A DNA stretch of 64,000 nucleotides from Lacipirellulaceae bacterium (GCA_040218535.1 JAVJRG010000008.1:1-64000); one strand, 5' to 3'. Shown: positions 1 through 7,914, numbered from the stretch's first letter. The notes: generated by a model from the sequence alone, not told the origin. Numbers and translations are program-made.

Positions 1-1724
1 AGATACACTGTCACATGCGGTAAACTTTGCGAATCGGCTGCTGTGGCTGGGAAGGAAGCGCTGCTCAGATACACTTGCCTTGCTGGTTGGTGTTTTGCCT
101 TACAGCTGTGGCTTGGAAGGAAGCGCTGCTCAGATACACTAGACACATGAGCTTCCCGCAGCGTCTCCACGCTGTGGCTTGGAAGGAAGCGCTGCTCAGA
201 TACACTAAGGGTACTGCCAGGGGGTAGCCGGTTGATGCTGTGGCTTGGAAGGAAGCGCTGCTCAGATACACTACCTCAAGATCAGCGTCGACGGCCTGGT
301 CGGCTGTGGCTTGGAAGGAAGCGCTGCTCAGATACACTCTCTTAATTACGCAACACCCTAGTCGAGTCGCTGTGGCTTGGAAGGAAGCGCTGCTCAGATA
401 CACTGCAACGTAGGGAAGTACGGCCCCTTGTTAGGCTGTGGCTTGGAAGGAAACGCTGCTCAGATACACTAGACTTTAATCATTCAATATCGAAATACGT
501 GCTGTGGCTTGGAAGGAAGCGCTGCTCAGATACACTTGGCGTTGAGCGGCGTCAATCACGACGTGCGCTGTGGCTTGGAAGGAAGCGCTGCTCAGATACA
601 CTCGGCTCGACCCCATAGGTGTCGTCTCCGCAGCTGTGGCTTGGAAGGAAGCGCTGCTCTGATACACTACTTACCGACGCAATGAACCGCGTGAAGGTGC
701 TGTGGCTTGGAAGGAAGCGCTGCTCAGATACACTCGCACTCACGATGCTGGCCAACGAAGCGAAGCTGTGGCTTGGAAGGAAGCGCTGCTCAGATACACT
801 TAATTGATGAGCCTGACACACCTTTAGTGGGCTGTGGCTTGGAAGGAAGCGCTGCTCAGATACACTGACTGACCAGGACTTCAGTGAGTACGATCCGCTG
901 TGGCTTGGAAGGAAGCGCTGCTCAGATACACTCGGAAGCTATTGACGATTGCCTAGAACAGATGCTGTGGCTTGGAAGGAAGCGCTGCTCAGATACACTC
1001 TCAACCACGCGCGAAACGTCCATGAAATGGCTGTGGCTTGGAAGGAAGCGCTGCTCAGATACACTCCCGCCCTTGCCTTTCCGACTCTGGCCGAGCTGTG
1101 GCTTGGAAGGAAGCGCTGCTCAGATACACTGAAATGAACCCAAAGCGTTTTGATGCGAGTGCTGTGGCTTGGAAGGAAGCGCTGCTCAGATACACTTGCA
1201 AGAGCTTCGCGTGCTGCTTCCTCGGAGCTGTGGCTTGGAAGGAAGCGCTGCTCAGATACACTACCCGTCCTCACCGTAAGTTTCGGTTCGTTGCTGTGGC
1301 TTGGAAGGAAGCGCTGCTCAGATACACTCATTCAGGGGCTCGTAAGTTCAATCAAGAAGCTGTGGCTTGGAAGGAAGCGCTGCTCAGATACACTCGACCG
1401 TCGTGATCAATCCGGCAGTCGCGCGCTGTGGCTTGGAAGGAAGCGCTGCTCAGATACACTGGTCCACATGACACTCAGGCCGCCGTATGAGCTGTGGCTT
1501 GGAAGGAAGCGCTGCTCAGATACACTCCGTGCAAGGTAGGATGCACGACCCGGCATGCTGTGGCTTGGAAGGAAGCGCTGCTCAGATACACTCGACATCG
1601 ACATCGACATCGGCTGCCCGGCGCTGTGGCTTGGAAGGAAGCGCTGCTCAGATACACTCGGTTGTCGTTGTGCCGCAGGCTGAGGAAGGCTGTGGCTTGG
1701 AAGGAAGCGCTGCTCAGATACACT
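1..1724 (+). CRISPR. Type II-C CRISPR array, 26 full repeats plus a partial one
   Basis: The array has a 36-bp direct repeat that begins GCTGTGGCTTGGAAGG and ends GCTGCTCAGATACACT. Complete repeats start at 40, 105, 171, 237, 303, 369, 435, 501, 567, 633, 699, 765, 831, 897, 964, 1030, 1095, 1161, 1227, 1293, 1359, 1425, 1491, 1557, 1623 and 1689. Positions 1-9 are the end of another repeat, so the array continues beyond the window. Spacers are 30 nt except 29 nt at 76-104 and 1066-1094 and 31 nt at 933-963. Variant repeats lie at 40 (T10G), 435 (G19A) and 633 (A28T); the repeats nearest cas2 are uniform. The tracrRNA anti-repeat pairs with the + strand transcript, so crRNAs are read left to right, opposite to the cas genes. 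Short reading frames across the array are repeat translations, not genes. Confidence 0.99.
40..75 (+). promoter_or_regulatory. In-repeat promoter for crRNA (example; present in every repeat)
   Basis: Within each repeat, nucleotides 9-14 read TTGGAA and nucleotides 31-36 read TACACT, separated by 16 nt. Each hexamer matches the sigma70 consensus at 4 of 6 positions. Starts would fall about 6-8 nt into the following spacer, leaving a guide of about 23-24 nt. This is the arrangement known from Neisseria type II-C arrays, where each crRNA has its own promoter. The copy at 40-75 has TGGGAA in place of TTGGAA and may be weaker. This is inferred from sequence only. Confidence 0.55.
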
Positions 1725-1726
1725 GC

Positions 1727-1746
1727 CTTCGCTTTAAACAGCGAAG
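1727..1746. other. 7-bp hairpin directly after the last repeat
   Basis: CTTCGCT (1727-1733) and AGCGAAG (1740-1746) are perfect complements around the loop TTAAAC. The hairpin starts 2 nt after the last repeat, between the array and the cas2 stop. No T-run follows on either strand, so it is not a standard intrinsic terminator. It could be a leader or trailer element used by the integration machinery, or a weak transcript end. Confidence 0.5.
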
Positions 1747-1774
1747 TCGTAGCAACTTGCGGCCACGGTCATAA

Positions 1775-2104
1775 CTAGAAAAGGAGCAATTGGTCGGGGA
1801 TTTCTTCCACACTTGTGCGATTTCTCCCAAGAAAAACTTCCATTTTGCCAAACTGACGATCGGTCACCGCCAGCAAGCGGACTTGGCCGTCGGGGGGAAG
1901 TTGCGCTTCGATCCGCCGACGGTACGAGTCGCTATGTTTCTCACTCACGCAGTATCGGGCATACACGGAAAATTGCAACATGCTAAAGCCCTCGCGCAGT
2001 AGCAACTTGCGGAACTGCGTGTAGCGACGGCGGGAGCGACGCGTTTTCACAGGCAGGTCGAACATCGCAAACAGCCACATCGCTTGGTACTCCGAAAGGG
2101 CCAT
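1775..2104 (-). CDS. cas2: CRISPR-associated endonuclease Cas2
   Basis: Cas2 forms the spacer-integration complex with Cas1. The product is 109 aa, the usual Cas2 size. Near the N-terminus it has FAMFDLPV, with the conserved aspartate at residue 16 after the first beta strand, followed by a basic stretch (TRRSRRRYTQFRKLL) typical of type II Cas2. I chose the ATG at 2104, 4 nt after the cas1 stop; an upstream in-frame start at 2128 would overlap cas1 and add eight residues unlike the family. The tight spacing indicates co-transcription with cas1. The gene ends about 50 bp from the last CRISPR repeat. A 14-nt stretch, GTAGCAACTTGCGG, occurs both inside this gene (1999-2012) and just past its end (1749-1762). 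Confidence 0.95.
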   Translation of the reverse strand: MALSEYQAMWLFAMFDLPVKTRRSRRRYTQFRKLLLREGFSMLQFSVYARYCVSEKHSDSYRRRIEAQLPPDGQVRLLAVTDRQFGKMEVFLGRNRTSVEEIPDQLLLF

Positions 2105-2108
2105 CAGT

Positions 2109-3023
2109 TTACACCTCGGGCAGCACAATTTTTTCGCGCTCCCCTAAAAAGACTTCGGCAAGGGAACTGGCCGTTCGAGCCATCGCGTCGAACACCGTCC
2201 GCTGCTCGCCTTCAAGTTTCGCCCGTACGAGAAGCGACTTGATCAAACGCTGCTTCACCGCTGGCGTCAGTTCGCACTGCGGTCCTTCGTCAACGAGCAG
2301 GCCCACCACCTCGCGATCCACCAACGGTCGCACCGGTTCCATCAGATCGTCCGCCAACGGATAGGTGGCATACTTGTTGTGATGATGCACGCCGAGGGAC
2401 GGATGCAACCCGGCGGCACAGATCGCCCGGGCGACAATCGCCCGCAGCACGGTGTATCCGTAGTTGAGCAGCGCGTTGCCATCGTCGAGCGACTGATCAC
2501 GGCGGAACCCTTTCGAGTCAGCCCCCGTCAGTCTTGGGTCAGCGAACAACTGTTGCCAGTATCGCCGTGCCGCGCGGGCTTCGACATTCGCGGGATCGCC
2601 GGAGCGGACCTGACTGACCAGTTGCCCAAGCCCCGCATCATTGCCACGAAGTTCCGAGAGTAAGTTCGATTGAGCGGTGATCTTCGCCCGCACGATTTGC
2701 CGCCAGACGCGTTTGCGCACCGGCAACTTCGCGGAGGCCTGGGCGGCGAAGCGTTCGACCTGGGCAAAGTGCGCGGCCAGCGGCAACAACATGCCGATCG
2801 GCAAGTGCTTGCCATCGCAGGTGATGAACACGCCACCCGCCGAAGCGATCCCCGCAAGAACCGCATGCGTGTAGTGGACCTGTGGATGCGACACGACCAG
2901 CACCGCCACGTCGACCAGCGGCAACCGCGCGGGCGTTTGATCCTTGGCCTCAACCACCAGATTCGCATCCCGCACAAATAACTTCGCGGGCGACTGCGAC
3001 AGGTCGAGGATGCGGTTGTTCAT
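2109..3023 (-). CDS. cas1: CRISPR-associated endonuclease Cas1, type II
   Basis: Cas1 is the metal-dependent integrase that inserts new spacers with Cas2. The product is 304 aa, the normal length for type II Cas1. Putative metal ligands are visible: the glutamate in VEARAARRYW (E148), the histidines of GVHHHNKYA (H213-H215) and acidic residues in LADDLMEP shortly after. The N-terminus, MNNRILDLSQSPAKLFV, fits family starts. No Shine-Dalgarno lies directly before the ATG; an AGGAGG further upstream is buried in a hairpin (3026-3061). The gene lies between cas9 and cas2 on the same strand, separated from cas9 by 180 bp that contain a degenerate CRISPR repeat. No csn2 or cas4 is present, which supports subtype II-C. 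Confidence 0.97.
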   Translation of the reverse strand: MNNRILDLSQSPAKLFVRDANLVVEAKDQTPARLPLVDVAVLVVSHPQVHYTHAVLAGIASAGGVFITCDGKHLPIGMLLPLAAHFAQVERFAAQASAKLPVRKRVWRQIVRAKITAQSNLLSELRGNDAGLGQLVSQVRSGDPANVEARAARRYWQQLFADPRLTGADSKGFRRDQSLDDGNALLNYGYTVLRAIVARAICAAGLHPSLGVHHHNKYATYPLADDLMEPVRPLVDREVVGLLVDEGPQCELTPAVKQRLIKSLLVRAKLEGEQRTVFDAMARTASSLAEVFLGEREKIVLPEV

Positions 3024-3025
3024 GA

Positions 3026-3061
3026 GGCCAGGAATGAGAACGAGGGAATGCCCTCCTGGCC
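3026..3061 (-). promoter_or_regulatory. Stem-loop immediately upstream of the cas1 start codon
   Basis: On the minus strand GGCCAGGA pairs perfectly with TCCTGGCC, with an inner GGG/CCC pairing, and the stem ends two nucleotides before the cas1 ATG. The 5' arm contains AGGAGG, the only strong Shine-Dalgarno-like sequence nearby. Folding would hide that site or bring it close to the start codon. A role in limiting Cas1-Cas2 translation is an inference. Confidence 0.5.
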
Positions 3062-3130
3062 GACGGGAGTCCGGTTTTGTATCTATTTCGCAGGATAATT
3101 GGCGAGCAAAGCCGGTGCAAAGAAAAATGC

Positions 3131-3166
3131 GGCGTGGCTCGGCGGGATTCGCTGCTCAGTTACACT
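3131..3166 (+). repeat. Degenerate CRISPR repeat between cas9 and cas1
   Basis: Aligned without gaps to the array repeat, 28 of 36 positions match, including the whole 3' part GCTGCTCAG and TACACT. It has the same orientation as the array. The -35-like hexamer has decayed to TCGGCG while the -10-like TACACT is kept. Read on the minus strand it resembles an anti-repeat, but no hairpins or terminator follow. It may be a fossil repeat or a source of a crRNA-like regulatory RNA. Confidence 0.8.
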
Positions 3167-3203
3167 ACTTTGCGCTGTTCGCTGCTAGCGTGGCGGCCAT
3201 ACT

Positions 3204-6200
3204 TTAATCACTCGCCTGACTTACTTCGCCGAGTGGGCCAACCGTAACTTTCTGGCACCCTTCTTTGAATAATGCATTAGCACTCTTGCGAATCCGCGCC
3301 CCGGGCTCTTTCTTGCGGACGGTTATTGGGCGGGCGTCGCTGTGGAGGACTAGCTCGACTTGGCTGCCGGAAATCACCGTCACGCGGCAAAGCCGTTCAT
3401 TTTCCGTGCCCGGCTCTAGCAGCACATGTTCGCCGCCGGCGAGGGAGAATTTGAATTTACGCTGCTTGCCGTGGTCGCGTTGGATGATCGGCTCCTGGCG
3501 GGCTTTGCGTTGCATCGCCTCGAAGCGGGAGACGAGCACGCCTTCCCATTTTTTCTCCTTGCCGTTCTTATCCAGCACGGCGACGACCTCCAGGTGATGG
3601 TTCGAGCCGGGGTTCACGTAGCGGCGTTTGCTTCCCTTGCCGATCGGCATCGGGTTGTCCGACTTGCGGATGCGGGCGCGGTGGATCGGCACAGTGCGAC
3701 CGTTCTTGCCGTGCAGCGACGGGTGGTTGTTCTTGTCGGCGAACGCTTTCTGCGGCGTGCCGCCGATCGCTTTGAGTTGGGTGAGAACCGCTTCGCGCAC
3801 GACCGGGTCGATGATCGCCTCCACTTCACCCTTGCTCATCGCTTCGAGCGGCTTACGGACGGCGTGAAAGGTTTCCGGCTGTTCGGAATCGTCATCCGCT
3901 TCGGGACGAGGCTTGCTGAGGATCGTCTCCTTGTGCAACGGGCCGTTGAGCTTTTTGCTGACGCGAGAAGAGACGTTGATCGCGGGAACCAATTCGCGGG
4001 CTTCGCTAACCAGTTCGTTGAACGGGTGATCGACCTCGGCGAACAGCTTGTGCTGATCCGGCCCATAGCGTTCTTCGGCTTCTTGTGCCGCTAGGCTTAG
4101 TTGTTGGACCGCGCGGGCATCGGTGAGGCCGATAACGATGGCATCAATGGCGTGGTGACGGTGGTCCTCCCGGTCCTTATCGTCAGAGTACCCGATGATC
4201 GAGTTCAGGTTCCAGCGTTGCCGCAGGTAGGAGGTCGCGCGACCGGGGCTGACCTGCACTTTGAACTTGCCGAAGCCGAGCTCGTCGCGTTCGATCTTTC
4301 CGCCGTAAAGCAGGCCCAAGTATTCCGTGGCGAGCTTGGCGATGTAACGGGTGTCGCTAAGTTGCTTTTTCGTGAACTCGTCCTGCTCGGGCAGTTCCTC
4401 AGCCAGAAAGCGTTGCAGCTTGATGCCGCGGGCGTCGCCGCGGAAGCGTTTGACGCGGGCGATCATCTCGTCCCAGTAGTCGGTGCCGTGGTAAGCCTCC
4501 CACGGCATGCGATTTCCTTTGCGGGCGTTCTCCTCGTGGTAGCAAAGCGTTTTGTTCGTGAACGAGTTATCCAGCGAACGGCTGAAGGGGATGATGTGCT
4601 CGATCTGGAATTGCGATTCGTTTCCGACTAATTGCTTCATGTTGATCGACTTGCCGGAGAACGGGCAGACCCAGCCGCACTCCTCGGCGAGACGCACTTT
4701 TAAGACATTGTCGCGGGTGCAGTAGTTTTCGTGCCCCATCTCGCGGAGGATTTTCTCGTACGCTTCTTCGCGGGACTTGGTGTTTTGGTTGCGGCGGTCG
4801 GTCAGGTCTTGGCGACGTTTGCGACTGTGCTTCAAGTCTCGGGCCATTTCGACGCGAAACGCCCACGGTTTGTGCTTCGCTTTTTTGAGGATCGCGTTAA
4901 TCACCTTGCGGAATTCGCTCATCGCCCGTTCGACCGCCGGGTTGCGTAACTCGGGGAAGGCTCCTTCCTTGTGGTAGCCGGTCGGGCGAACCGGGGGTAG
5001 CTCGTCGAGCGGCTCAATTGTGGCGAACGTCTCCGGATCGAGTTCCCGCCGGATGGTTTGTAGCGCGAACCCTTCGCGGAGCTTTAGTAAATAACGCTCA
5101 ATCGTGTGACGGGAGTAGGCCGCGTAGGCATCTTCCAGCTTCGCCCCAGCAGCCGCTTTGGCACGGTCCGCGGGGATGCCTAACTCCGTTTCCAAACGGT
5201 TGGCGAGTGCTTGCTCGTTGTCGAACTGAAGGATTTCATCAACGAGAATGTCCTGGTCGTTGGCGGAAAGCTCTGTCCACGATTCGCCCAGCGCGTCTTC
5301 GAGCTTTGCGTAAGTGCGGTTGCCGATGAGTTTCTTGTCGCCCGCTTTCTCGAAGTTGAACTCCCAGTGGCGACCGTAATCTTTGGACTTCTTCATGCCA
5401 AGCAGCTTCTTGATTGCCGCCCAGGAGAGGCCGTCGGTTTGCAATAGCTCCGTGGCGAGCTGTTGTTTTTGCTCCTCGGTCAGATCGACAATCTCCCCAT
5501 CGGGAGCGGTGACACGCAAGTCGTTCACCCGCTGCAAGACGCGGAACTCCTGAAACGGCAGACAAGCCGCCGGAGCACGGCGTTTCGTGGGATCGATGCT
5601 GCAACGCCCGATTAAGTGTTTTTGCGATTTAAGTGGCCGCTGGAAGAAGATAGCCGCGTGGATTTCTTCTTTGAGTTCGTCGGTGAGTTCCTTATGGTGT
5701 TCTGCTTGGGCGTTCCAAATCGCTTCGAACTCTTCCCAAAACATGTGACGGCTGGTCCAGCGGGAACGAATTCTTTGTTCTTCGGGATCCAGCGTAGTGA
5801 AGTACGAACCGATGGTTGGAACATCCGCTTTGTCCATGAGCTTATAGAGGTCAGCGATGCCAGATTTCACTTTGCCGGTTTCTTCCTCGTCACCCCCCGC
5901 TTTGCGATTGGAGAGAAACCCGCGCCGCTGAGCGAGTTGATAGAGGGCACGCCCGACCGCGTGCAACGGGAGCTTCTCGTCGAGAGCGCGTTTACGGAGT
6001 TCATAAGGCAGCAGTTGATCGCTGACGCGGTCGCCGCCGAGGCCTAATTCCTCGCGCAGCTTCTGATCCACTGCCAATAGATGTTCATGCCGTTGGTCGT
6101 TCTTGGCGGCTTCGCAAGGCGGCAACAAACCGTTACGGCAGAGTAAATTGAACAGCTTCTTCATCCGCCGCCGCCGCCGAAAATTCTGCCGGCGCGGCCC

Positions 6201-6419
6201 CCGCGCATCACGCCGAGCCGTGGCACGGCTTTCATCCTTACCCTTCTCAATATCGCCGAGGACGCCCGCCTCGAATCGTCGGACGCCACTAGCCACTAAG
6301 CCGAGCGGGTTCCCTTTGTCATCGCAAGCGATCACTGCCCAGCCGACTGATGACGGGCCGAGGTCGATTCCCACGAGATAAGGTTGCCCGTCTTGCAGGT
6401 GCTGCCAGGTGTATTTCAT
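3204..6419 (-). CDS. cas9: CRISPR-associated endonuclease Cas9, subtype II-C
   Basis: Cas9 is the RNA-guided double-strand DNA nuclease of the locus. The product is 1071 aa, in the compact II-C range. RuvC-I is GIDLGPSSVGWA with D19. An arginine-rich bridge helix (ARGPRRQNFRRRRRMKK) follows near residues 60-80. RuvC-II is FRVEMARD with E524. The HNH core is QIEHIIPFSRSLDNSF with catalytic H608 and a later ENARKGN asparagine. RuvC-III is HHAIDAIVIGL with H756 and D759. All nuclease residues are present. The C-terminal third should hold the wedge and PAM-interacting domains; the PAM cannot be read from the sequence. I chose the ATG at 6419. A longer frame from 6533 would translate the anti-repeat and lacks family similarity. 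A promoter embedded in the reverse strand of the anti-repeat probably drives the gene. Confidence 0.98.
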   Translation of the reverse strand: MKYTWQHLQDGQPYLVGIDLGPSSVGWAVIACDDKGNPLGLVASGVRRFEAGVLGDIEKGKDESRATARRDARGPRRQNFRRRRRMKKLFNLLCRNGLLPPCEAAKNDQRHEHLLAVDQKLREELGLGGDRVSDQLLPYELRKRALDEKLPLHAVGRALYQLAQRRGFLSNRKAGGDEEETGKVKSGIADLYKLMDKADVPTIGSYFTTLDPEEQRIRSRWTSRHMFWEEFEAIWNAQAEHHKELTDELKEEIHAAIFFQRPLKSQKHLIGRCSIDPTKRRAPAACLPFQEFRVLQRVNDLRVTAPDGEIVDLTEEQKQQLATELLQTDGLSWAAIKKLLGMKKSKDYGRHWEFNFEKAGDKKLIGNRTYAKLEDALGESWTELSANDQDILVDEILQFDNEQALANRLETELGIPADRAKAAAGAKLEDAYAAYSRHTIERYLLKLREGFALQTIRRELDPETFATIEPLDELPPVRPTGYHKEGAFPELRNPAVERAMSEFRKVINAILKKAKHKPWAFRVEMARDLKHSRKRRQDLTDRRNQNTKSREEAYEKILREMGHENYCTRDNVLKVRLAEECGWVCPFSGKSINMKQLVGNESQFQIEHIIPFSRSLDNSFTNKTLCYHEENARKGNRMPWEAYHGTDYWDEMIARVKRFRGDARGIKLQRFLAEELPEQDEFTKKQLSDTRYIAKLATEYLGLLYGGKIERDELGFGKFKVQVSPGRATSYLRQRWNLNSIIGYSDDKDREDHRHHAIDAIVIGLTDARAVQQLSLAAQEAEERYGPDQHKLFAEVDHPFNELVSEARELVPAINVSSRVSKKLNGPLHKETILSKPRPEADDDSEQPETFHAVRKPLEAMSKGEVEAIIDPVVREAVLTQLKAIGGTPQKAFADKNNHPSLHGKNGRTVPIHRARIRKSDNPMPIGKGSKRRYVNPGSNHHLEVVAVLDKNGKEKKWEGVLVSRFEAMQRKARQEPIIQRDHGKQRKFKFSLAGGEHVLLEPGTENERLCRVTVISGSQVELVLHSDARPITVRKKEPGARIRKSANALFKEGCQKVTVGPLGEVSQASD

Positions 6420-6465
6420 CGTTGAGAATCCCAAAGAACAGGTTAGGAAAGTGAGGAAAGCAGGC

Positions 6466-6493
6466 TTGTCAAAAGAGAAGAAGGAGATACGAT
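6466..6493 (+). promoter_or_regulatory. Predicted tracrRNA promoter
   Basis: TTGTCA (6466-6471, 5 of 6 to consensus) and TACGAT (6488-6493, 4 of 6) are separated by 16 nt. The predicted start is near 6500, the first base of the anti-repeat. The position relative to the tracrRNA is the main support. Confidence 0.6.
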
Positions 6494-6500
6494 TGCTTTT

Positions 6501-6528
6501 AGTGTATCTGAGCAGCGTTTGCCTCCAA
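6501..6528 (-). promoter_or_regulatory. Predicted cas9 promoter inside the anti-repeat
   Basis: On the minus strand the anti-repeat keeps the repeat's promoter elements: TTGGAG (complement of 6523-6528), 16 nt, TACACT (complement of 6501-6506). The predicted start is near 6494, giving a 5' UTR of about 75 nt before the cas9 ATG. This promoter faces the tracrRNA promoter head-on and overlaps its start. Confidence 0.5.
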
Positions 6529-6583
6529 GTCATAGTAAGGCTTTCGCGAGCCGCCAGGCAATGTTCCCCGGAACAACCTGTGA

Positions 6584-6608
6584 CGCCCCCCAGCGGGGCG
6601 TTTTTTTT
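6584..6608 (+). terminator. Intrinsic terminator of tracrRNA
   Basis: CGCCCC and GGGGCG form a GC-rich stem around CCAGC, followed by eight T (6601-6608). A G-rich tract with two G6 runs follows directly (6609-6626). Confidence 0.92.
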
Positions 6609-6656
6609 GGGGGGAGGAGAGGGGGGCCGCCTTGAATTCTTGGAACAGCGGCATCA

Positions 6657-7667
6657 CTATTCTATCGAACCTGTGGCCCTTGCGGCAGAGGCTCTAAGGT
6701 GGCCTAGGTTAGAGGCGAGGTGCTGATACTGCCTAGCTACCATCGTTCCGTCCACGTGGCCCATCAGTTGCCCCAGAGTGATTGGGTCAACTCCATTAAG
6801 CAAACCCTGCGTCGCGTAGGAGTGCCGGAAGCTATAAGCACAGAGCCCAGGTAGATTCATCAGTTTCTGGAACCTTGTAAATCGACATTTCATTGCATCT
6901 TTCGTCCACGGCCGATTTCGGAGGTTTCTAAAAAGGGTTCCATCGGGATTCACCCGAGCGTATGACTCTACAATTGCTTGCGCTTTTTCGTTTAGAATGA
7001 GAATACGACGACGACGCTGTCCTTTGGATTGGGCCATCGGAAAGATTGCAATTCCATTGGCAAAATCGCAGTATCGAGCTTCTAGTGTACGCGCTTCGAT
7101 TGGGCGACAGCCCGTCTCCCAGAGAAAAATGAGAAGGTCCCGAAAGCGGGGCTCCTTGAGATGCGTCTGAAGCTCTTGCCAGTCGGAAGGTGATAGGACA
7201 ACCTCGCGGCGCTGTCTTGGAGGTTTCTCCTCAATGTACATAAGCGGATGAGTATGCAGGAGATTCCTCTTTACTGCCCACGAGAAAGCTCGTTGCACAT
7301 GGCCAATTGCCTCGTGGCGAGTAGTATTTCCCCACGTAGACTGTCGAGAGATCCACCCTGAGACATGGTCAGGAGATATATCAGCGACTCGAAGACGAGA
7401 GCCAACACTCTTGGCAAACGAGCTTAGATAGAAGCGACAAGCGTCGTATGTAGTTGCTGCGCGGTGTGTCTTTACCCAAGCGAGATACGAGTTCAGAAGC
7501 TCTTGGACACCCGTCACATAAGTCTTTGTTGCCTCAGAACTCGCCATGAGCTGATGGTATTTGGCGAAAGCAGCTTCCTTGTCCTTTCCAAGGGGAATCT
7601 GCTTCCCAGCGATCTGAACGTACCAGCTACGTGTGAATTTTCGATAGAAAGGCTTTGGTTGACGCAT
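6657..7667 (-). CDS. Tyrosine recombinase / phage-type integrase
   Basis: The protein (336 aa from the chosen start) is a tyrosine-type site-specific recombinase. An N-terminal SAM-like DNA-binding region (about 60-140) is followed by the catalytic domain. Visible catalytic residues are R188 in ETGCRPIEAR, R281 with H282 in SFRHSYAT, the histidine of LMGHVDGT and the nucleophile Y314 in VARQYQHL. The usual histidine three residues before the second arginine is replaced by tyrosine (CAYSFRH). I chose the ATG at 7667 because GAGG lies 6 nt upstream; in-frame starts at 7679 and 7799 are possible. It lies 173 bp from the 3' end of a tRNA-Pro gene, with cas9 and tracrRNA on its other side. That is the usual layout of an element integrated at a tRNA, though it could also be a resident recombinase. 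Confidence 0.9.
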   Translation of the reverse strand: MRQPKPFYRKFTRSWYVQIAGKQIPLGKDKEAAFAKYHQLMASSEATKTYVTGVQELLNSYLAWVKTHRAATTYDACRFYLSSFAKSVGSRLRVADISPDHVSGWISRQSTWGNTTRHEAIGHVQRAFSWAVKRNLLHTHPLMYIEEKPPRQRREVVLSPSDWQELQTHLKEPRFRDLLIFLWETGCRPIEARTLEARYCDFANGIAIFPMAQSKGQRRRRILILNEKAQAIVESYARVNPDGTLFRNLRNRPWTKDAMKCRFTRFQKLMNLPGLCAYSFRHSYATQGLLNGVDPITLGQLMGHVDGTMVARQYQHLASNLGHLRASAARATGSIE

Positions 7668-7839
7668 TGCGAACCTCATAGGAAGGAGTCGAAACCACTG
7701 CGAAGCGGATCGATAGGTTCGCGCCTGAGACCTGACTTGGTGGGTCCCTTCAGTGCAGATTACGCGGGGAAGCCCCCAATTGTTCTGCAAACTCTGCAAT
7801 TATCTCTGCAATCGGACATTCGAATTGACGTAAGTCCAG

Positions 7840-7914
7840 TCGGGCTGAGAGGATTTGAACCTCCGACCTCTGCGTCCCGAACGCAGCGCTCTAGCCAAGC
7901 TGAGCTACAGCCCG
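7840..7914 (-). tRNA. tRNA-Pro (anticodon CGG)
   Basis: The acceptor stem CGGGCTG/CAGCCCG is a perfect 7 bp. The D arm contains GCTCAGCTTGGCTAGAGC. The anticodon stem CTGCG/CGCAG encloses TTCGGGA, giving anticodon CGG. The T arm reads GGAGGTTCAAATCCTCT. The discriminator is A and CCA is not encoded. A TATACT box lies about 50 nt upstream on the minus strand. The 3' end faces the integrase gene. Confidence 0.96.

Follow-up and report, generated by a model that had tools for sequence, protein, structure and literature searches.

The locus at the start of this stretch raises the question of whether a type II-C CRISPR-Cas9 system that adjoins a tRNA gene and an integrase gene belongs to the resident chromosome, or arrived as the cargo of a mobile element. 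The genome (G000) comprises 5.36 Mb in 13 contigs, and the window, i.e. the whole 64,000-nucleotide stretch that was analysed, covers bases 1-64000 of contig C8. An earlier note on this DNA had treated the locus as an ordinary resident system, but the evidence points to cargo of a tRNA-integrated element; this enclosing 12,031-bp integrative element, which the note missed, is the larger finding.

The CRISPR-Cas9 locus

Base 1 of the window is the end of contig C8 and lies inside the CRISPR array, of which the 3' (cas2-proximal) part occupies 1-1724 (+) with 26 full 36-nt repeats (GCTGTGGCTTGGAAGGAAGCGCTGCTCAGATACACT) at 66-nt spacing, a pattern far above chance, and mostly 30-nt spacers. Contig C9 starts with the reverse complement of the C8 start, so that the two overlap for 176 bp at 93% identity through repeat-spacer units, with the differences sitting at both low-quality contig ends. 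The other 24 repeats lie on C9, giving a full array of 50 repeats and 49 spacers, and nearly all of the repeats are perfect. The putative C8-C9 join thus falls at low-quality contig ends, which was counted against the explanation preferred here. Since the array is cut by the contig end, the description of the locus as complete, with everything inside 6.6 kb, does not hold.

The cas genes are encoded on the minus strand. Cas9 (3204-6419; 1071 aa) matches TIGR01865 (2.7e-200) as well as HNH_4 and RuvC_III, and retains all catalytic residues (D19, E524, H608, N631, H756, and D759), while type II cas1 (2109-3023) matches TIGR03639 (4.6e-72) and cas2 (1775-2104) matches TIGR01573 (2.7e-20) and PF09827. 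The cas2 ORF reaches a TTG at 2128 (1775-2128), with the start probably at 2104. None of the three frames is interrupted and each matches a curated type II family; neither csn2, cas4 nor any further cas gene was recognised between the array and the integrase gene. Among solved structures, phmmer places the window Cas9 nearest to Cas9s of ~1083 aa, which we take to be of the Neisseria meningitidis II-C type. The Cas9 tree contains same-order Cas9 sequences only; clade members with a readable motif carry Glu-His at the HNH site (E607-H608 in the window), while the sister clade carries Asp-His. A complete-looking type I-C system is also present in G000, on contig C7 (L172:3536-12938), with an array, cas1, cas7, cas8c, cas5, and cas3.

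The tracrRNA (6501-6608, +) lies upstream of cas9 on the opposite strand and consists of an anti-repeat (6501-6536), hairpins and a terminator (6582-6608), the latter being GC-rich over 6582-6602 and followed by a T-run. The anti-repeat matches the array repeat and pairs along nearly its whole length, with a predicted duplex of -59 kcal/mol. This pairing fixes the direction of transcription, so that the crRNA is read from the plus strand, opposite to the cas genes. A promoter-like sequence (TTGTCA-N16-TACGAT; 6466-6493, +) is the sole sigma70-type match in 1725-6700, where about one match is expected by chance; the match therefore counts chiefly for where it lies and for being conserved, most of the relatives examined having similar hexamers ahead of the tracrRNA. 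From the tracrRNA alignment, RNAalifold recovered the terminator stem and nothing else.

The earlier description of an intact 1071-aa Cas9 with all RuvC and HNH residues, accompanied by cas1, cas2, an antisense array and a tracrRNA with terminator, is borne out by these features. Its assignment to type II-C stands as well, given the type II Cas1 with Cas2, the absence of csn2 and cas4, and a II-C-sized Cas9 nearest to the presumed Neisseria type, and is supported further by the antisense array, the opposite-strand tracrRNA upstream of cas9 and the -10-like repeat ends. The latter are seen in the repeats of the window (1-1724) and of related arrays of the clade, which end in TACACT, TATACT, TACATT or TATAAT, as would be expected for repeat-embedded promoters in II-C systems. 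The last repeat is separated from cas2 by a block that relatives share in part, and this fits the spacer acquisition at the 3' end that II-C arrays favour (PMC12638026).

The spacer search that had been suggested as a way to infer a PAM was run and returned no protospacers in the own genome, in phages and plasmids (first array half), in 396 same-order genomes (both halves) or in any of the fetched loci, nor did exact IMG/VR scans with four spacers. The matches were at chance level or chromosomal and partial only, with spacer 28 giving the best ones (26/30; several genomes), and therefore no PAM was derived. Likewise, no relatives of the Cas9 were found in genome_contigs and IMG/VR, and the exact CRISPR repeat was absent from IMG/VR.

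Between cas9 and cas1 lies a solitary degenerate repeat (3131-3166, +), which is identical to the array repeat at 28/36 positions, compared with a maximum of 23 over 200 shuffles. It sits in an insert of ~180 nt, also missed by the earlier note, while the stop codon of cas9 overlaps with the start of cas1 in all nine inspected close relatives that keep cas1 directly downstream, and a more distant genome (G050) has a short gap. That the repeat is functional, either as a repeat-mimic RNA that binds tracrRNA/Cas9 as a brake, or as an anti-repeat in the cas mRNA that pairs with pre-crRNA and thereby feeds back on cas expression, appears doubtful. It does retain predicted pairing with the tracrRNA (-43.7 kcal/mol) and with the pre-crRNA (-52.4 kcal/mol), a degenerate repeat is found at the same place, just after cas9, in G013 (a genome from another genus of the family), and solitary repeats elsewhere act as RNA anti-CRISPRs (PMC10651486). 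However, the sigma70-type scan of 1725-6700 gave no promoter match near it, the 9-13 nt upstream of it have one weak 9-mer as their only seed match in the element, its changes weaken the pairing with the tracrRNA, and the nine other relatives inspected lack it, their cas9 and cas1 overlapping. Guidance of Cas9 to the cas9 promoter was rejected, as no seed match was found there. With neither a promoter match nor a target, the repeat was most likely left behind by a rearrangement, and the insert could lower cas1 expression by breaking the usual cas9-cas1 overlap.

The enclosing element and its insertion site

Next to the tracrRNA, a tyrosine integrase gene (6657-7799, -; PF00589, 6.4e-16; phrog_1 integrase, 4.6e-48), whose true start may be internal to the ORF, adjoins a tRNA-Pro(CGG) gene (7839-7914, -) that serves as integration target and is left complete. 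The att core at the tRNA end (7838-7881, -) has an identical 44-bp copy on contig C9 (4327-4370, +). These exact direct repeats correspond to the 3' half of tRNA-Pro, lie 12,031 bp apart, and bracket the integrase, cas, and Rep genes. Within them were recognised the integrase gene, the tracrRNA-cas9-cas1-cas2-array block, an excisionase-like HTH protein (TIGR01764, 6.8e-12), a 439-aa protein (P0001) and a 162-aa HTH protein, and no further genes. GC3 ranges from 0.72 to 0.74 for the cas genes and is 0.51 for the integrase and 0.42 for the rep gene, compared with 0.60-0.64 for two neighbouring host genes.

An uninterrupted counterpart of the site is found in G015, from the same family, in which tRNA-Pro is joined directly to the sequence that lies beyond attR in G000 (79% over 174 nt). 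In G001, from the same genus, no Cas9 match was obtained, and the region examined contains one att copy; since this attB copy has a different flank, G015 was used as the empty site. In G015 the junction is followed by an intact integrase gene (L158:2318-3500), of which a 5' remnant remains just beyond attR in G000 (L031:4493-4630). This remnant of another tyrosine integrase marks tRNA-Pro as an integration hot spot, and the CRISPR element would appear to have entered between tRNA-Pro and the remnant. The same-genus genome also carries a prepilin-like ORF, of a kind known from planctomycetes. Away from its attB region, G001 has a relic of two degenerate repeats of the window's repeat family around a 30-nt spacer (L190:5129-5223), and a relic similar to this pair occurs in G525 (L195).

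A second instance is provided by G013, where an 11,593-bp element is flanked by 45-bp att repeats at tRNA-Met and contains an integrase, a relative of P0001, a DUF1580 protein, a Cas9 53% identical to that of the window, a tracrRNA, cas2, cas1 on the other strand, and an IS3-like insertion, while its array is reduced to one perfect repeat and one degenerate one. The two elements of G000 and G013 are the only Cas9 elements of such make-up that were found. The Cas1 of G013 (L066:11860-12780) and that of its Cas9 sister G197 (L120:3996-4895) fall into another II-C clade with 100/100 support and are encoded on the opposite strand, beyond the tracrRNA, with Cas2 still of the local lineage; the adaptation gene has thus been swapped.

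Mobility and alternative explanations

By sequence, P0001 has no direct family in Pfam, NCBIfam, PHROGs or PDB, and it was assigned via its homologs and its fold instead. Among 27 homologs, seven match Rep_trans and eight match Phage_CRI, and the AF2 model (pLDDT 86) finds the rolling-circle initiators 4cij (1.2e-10) and 4cwe as top matches in Foldseek, so that a rolling-circle-initiator (Rep_trans-like) fold is predicted. The Rep_trans family includes relaxases of mobilizable elements (PMC7563843); in the element, the modelled fold is found with no recognised mating-pore genes. In other genomes of the order, homologs of P0001 have integrases nearby, as well as an adjoining tRNA in two cases (L132 and L133), and L131 has 22-bp repeats of tRNA-Met sequence 7.3 kb apart. 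The Rep homologs near integrases in L131, L132 and L133 occur without Cas9 matches, which suggests a wider element family carrying other cargo.

It is therefore highly probable that an integrative and probably mobilizable element of 12.0 kb, inserted in tRNA-Pro(CGG) at the part running from the anticodon loop to the 3' end, carries the complete II-C CRISPR-Cas9 system as its sole recognisable cargo, a reading that draws, from sequence or structural model, on the gene content, the exact att duplication, the uninterrupted junction in a relative, the predicted Rep_trans fold and the tRNA-Met instance. In such an element, the integrase and the excisionase-like protein would excise the DNA as a circle, which the Rep_trans-like protein would nick, either for rolling-circle replication or as a relaxase. 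In the latter case, a conjugative helper would carry the element to a new cell, where it would re-integrate and supply adaptive immunity. Pre-crRNA would be transcribed from plus-strand promoters, some perhaps inside the repeats as in other II-C systems, and would pair with the plus-strand tracrRNA, so that RNase III and Cas9 yield guides with which Cas9 would cut matching invaders, while Cas1-Cas2 would add spacers, probably at the cas2-proximal end. On contig C12, G000 has a MobF/TrwC relaxase adjoining a TraD/TrwB coupling protein (L173:4823-10727), and this locus could act as conjugation helper.

An ordinary resident II-C locus, close to a tRNA and an integrase only by coincidence, with the tRNA fragment on C9 stemming from an unrelated event, is disfavoured and very improbable. 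CRISPR loci are often found near islands, C8 and C9 are separate contigs, and the remnant of the other integrase beyond attR, which makes the tRNA a hot spot, fits a resident locus. Yet C8 and C9 share a 176-bp overlap that runs through repeat-spacer units, the two att copies match at all 44 bp and enclose int, cas and Rep, the junction is uninterrupted in G015, and G013 repeats the pattern at another tRNA.

The other two alternatives concern what kind of element this is. That it is a decayed island, formerly mobile and now fixed, in which CRISPR-Cas was retained for the host, has a minor though appreciable chance: the solitary repeat and the insertion at the cas9-cas1 junction would agree with decay, as would the G013 copy with its IS3-like insertion and its one perfect and one degenerate repeat, but G000 has uninterrupted frames for int, Rep, xis, and cas, its att cores do not differ, and almost every one of the 50 repeats is perfect. 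It is unlikely, too, that the element is a phage satellite instead of one mobilized by conjugation. Small size, a tRNA att site and an excisionase-like HTH are compatible with a satellite, some Rep homologs match Phage_CRI, and the integrase scores best in PHROG integrase families; however, no capsid-remodelling, packaging, phage-hijacking or other recognised satellite gene is present among the element ORFs searched, the Cas9 query has no relative in IMG/VR, the Rep fold matches plasmid initiators, and the MobF relaxase/TraD locus offers a possible helper.

Relation to known systems

The locus resembles the II-C system of Neisseria meningitidis in the size and domains of Cas9 (phmmer 4.7e-62) and also in the cas9-cas1-cas2 order, the antisense array and the 36-nt repeat, but the Neisseria system is chromosomal, and the window Cas9 clade has Glu instead of Asp before the HNH catalytic His. 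CampyICE1 is likewise an integrative element with spacer arrays and a type II-C Cas9, yet it is a conjugative ICE of 70-129 kb with a degenerate system and Cas9 alone (PMC8743540), whereas the present element has 12 kb, includes cas1, cas2 and a tracrRNA too, and lacks conjugation genes. In Vibrionaceae, CRISPR-Cas systems on tRNA islands include a type II-B system at tRNA-Met, and thus a Cas9 on a tRNA-inserted island with an integrase; this one is of type II-B and has cas4, no Rep_trans protein is mentioned in the portion of the report drawn on here, and the V. natriegens island described there has 30 kb, a restriction system and three integrases (PMC6360697). The streptococcal Rep_trans (MobT-like) integrative mobilizable elements are also small and encode their own Rep_trans-family relaxase/initiator, but belong to Firmicutes, carry lsa(C) resistance in about half of the cases and reside mostly in ICE oriT (PMC7563843), in contrast to the CRISPR-Cas9 cargo, tRNA site and far diverged Rep family seen here. 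Precedents for Cas9 systems carried by tRNA islands and ICEs are already in the literature (PMC8743540; PMC6360697), and the present element is a compact variant of this kind.

It is a speculative and rather improbable extension that minimal mobile Cas9 elements of ~12 kb form a class of their own, which integrates at tRNAs, encodes an initiator/relaxase of Rep_trans fold and has a complete adaptive immune system as sole cargo. In this view, an RNA from the solitary repeat between cas9 and cas1 would tune that system, which would serve to exclude competing mobile elements. The distribution of type II-C Cas9 among genomes is scattered, and the movement of whole systems is seldom visible at base resolution. 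Since CRISPR-Cas9 is here the cargo of an element inserted at tRNA-Pro, a whole adaptive immune system was apparently acquired as one mobile package, and as both boundaries can be read, together with the uninterrupted junction and another such element at a second tRNA, the transfer of an entire Cas9 system becomes directly testable. A further question is whether it is the host or the element that benefits from the spacers.
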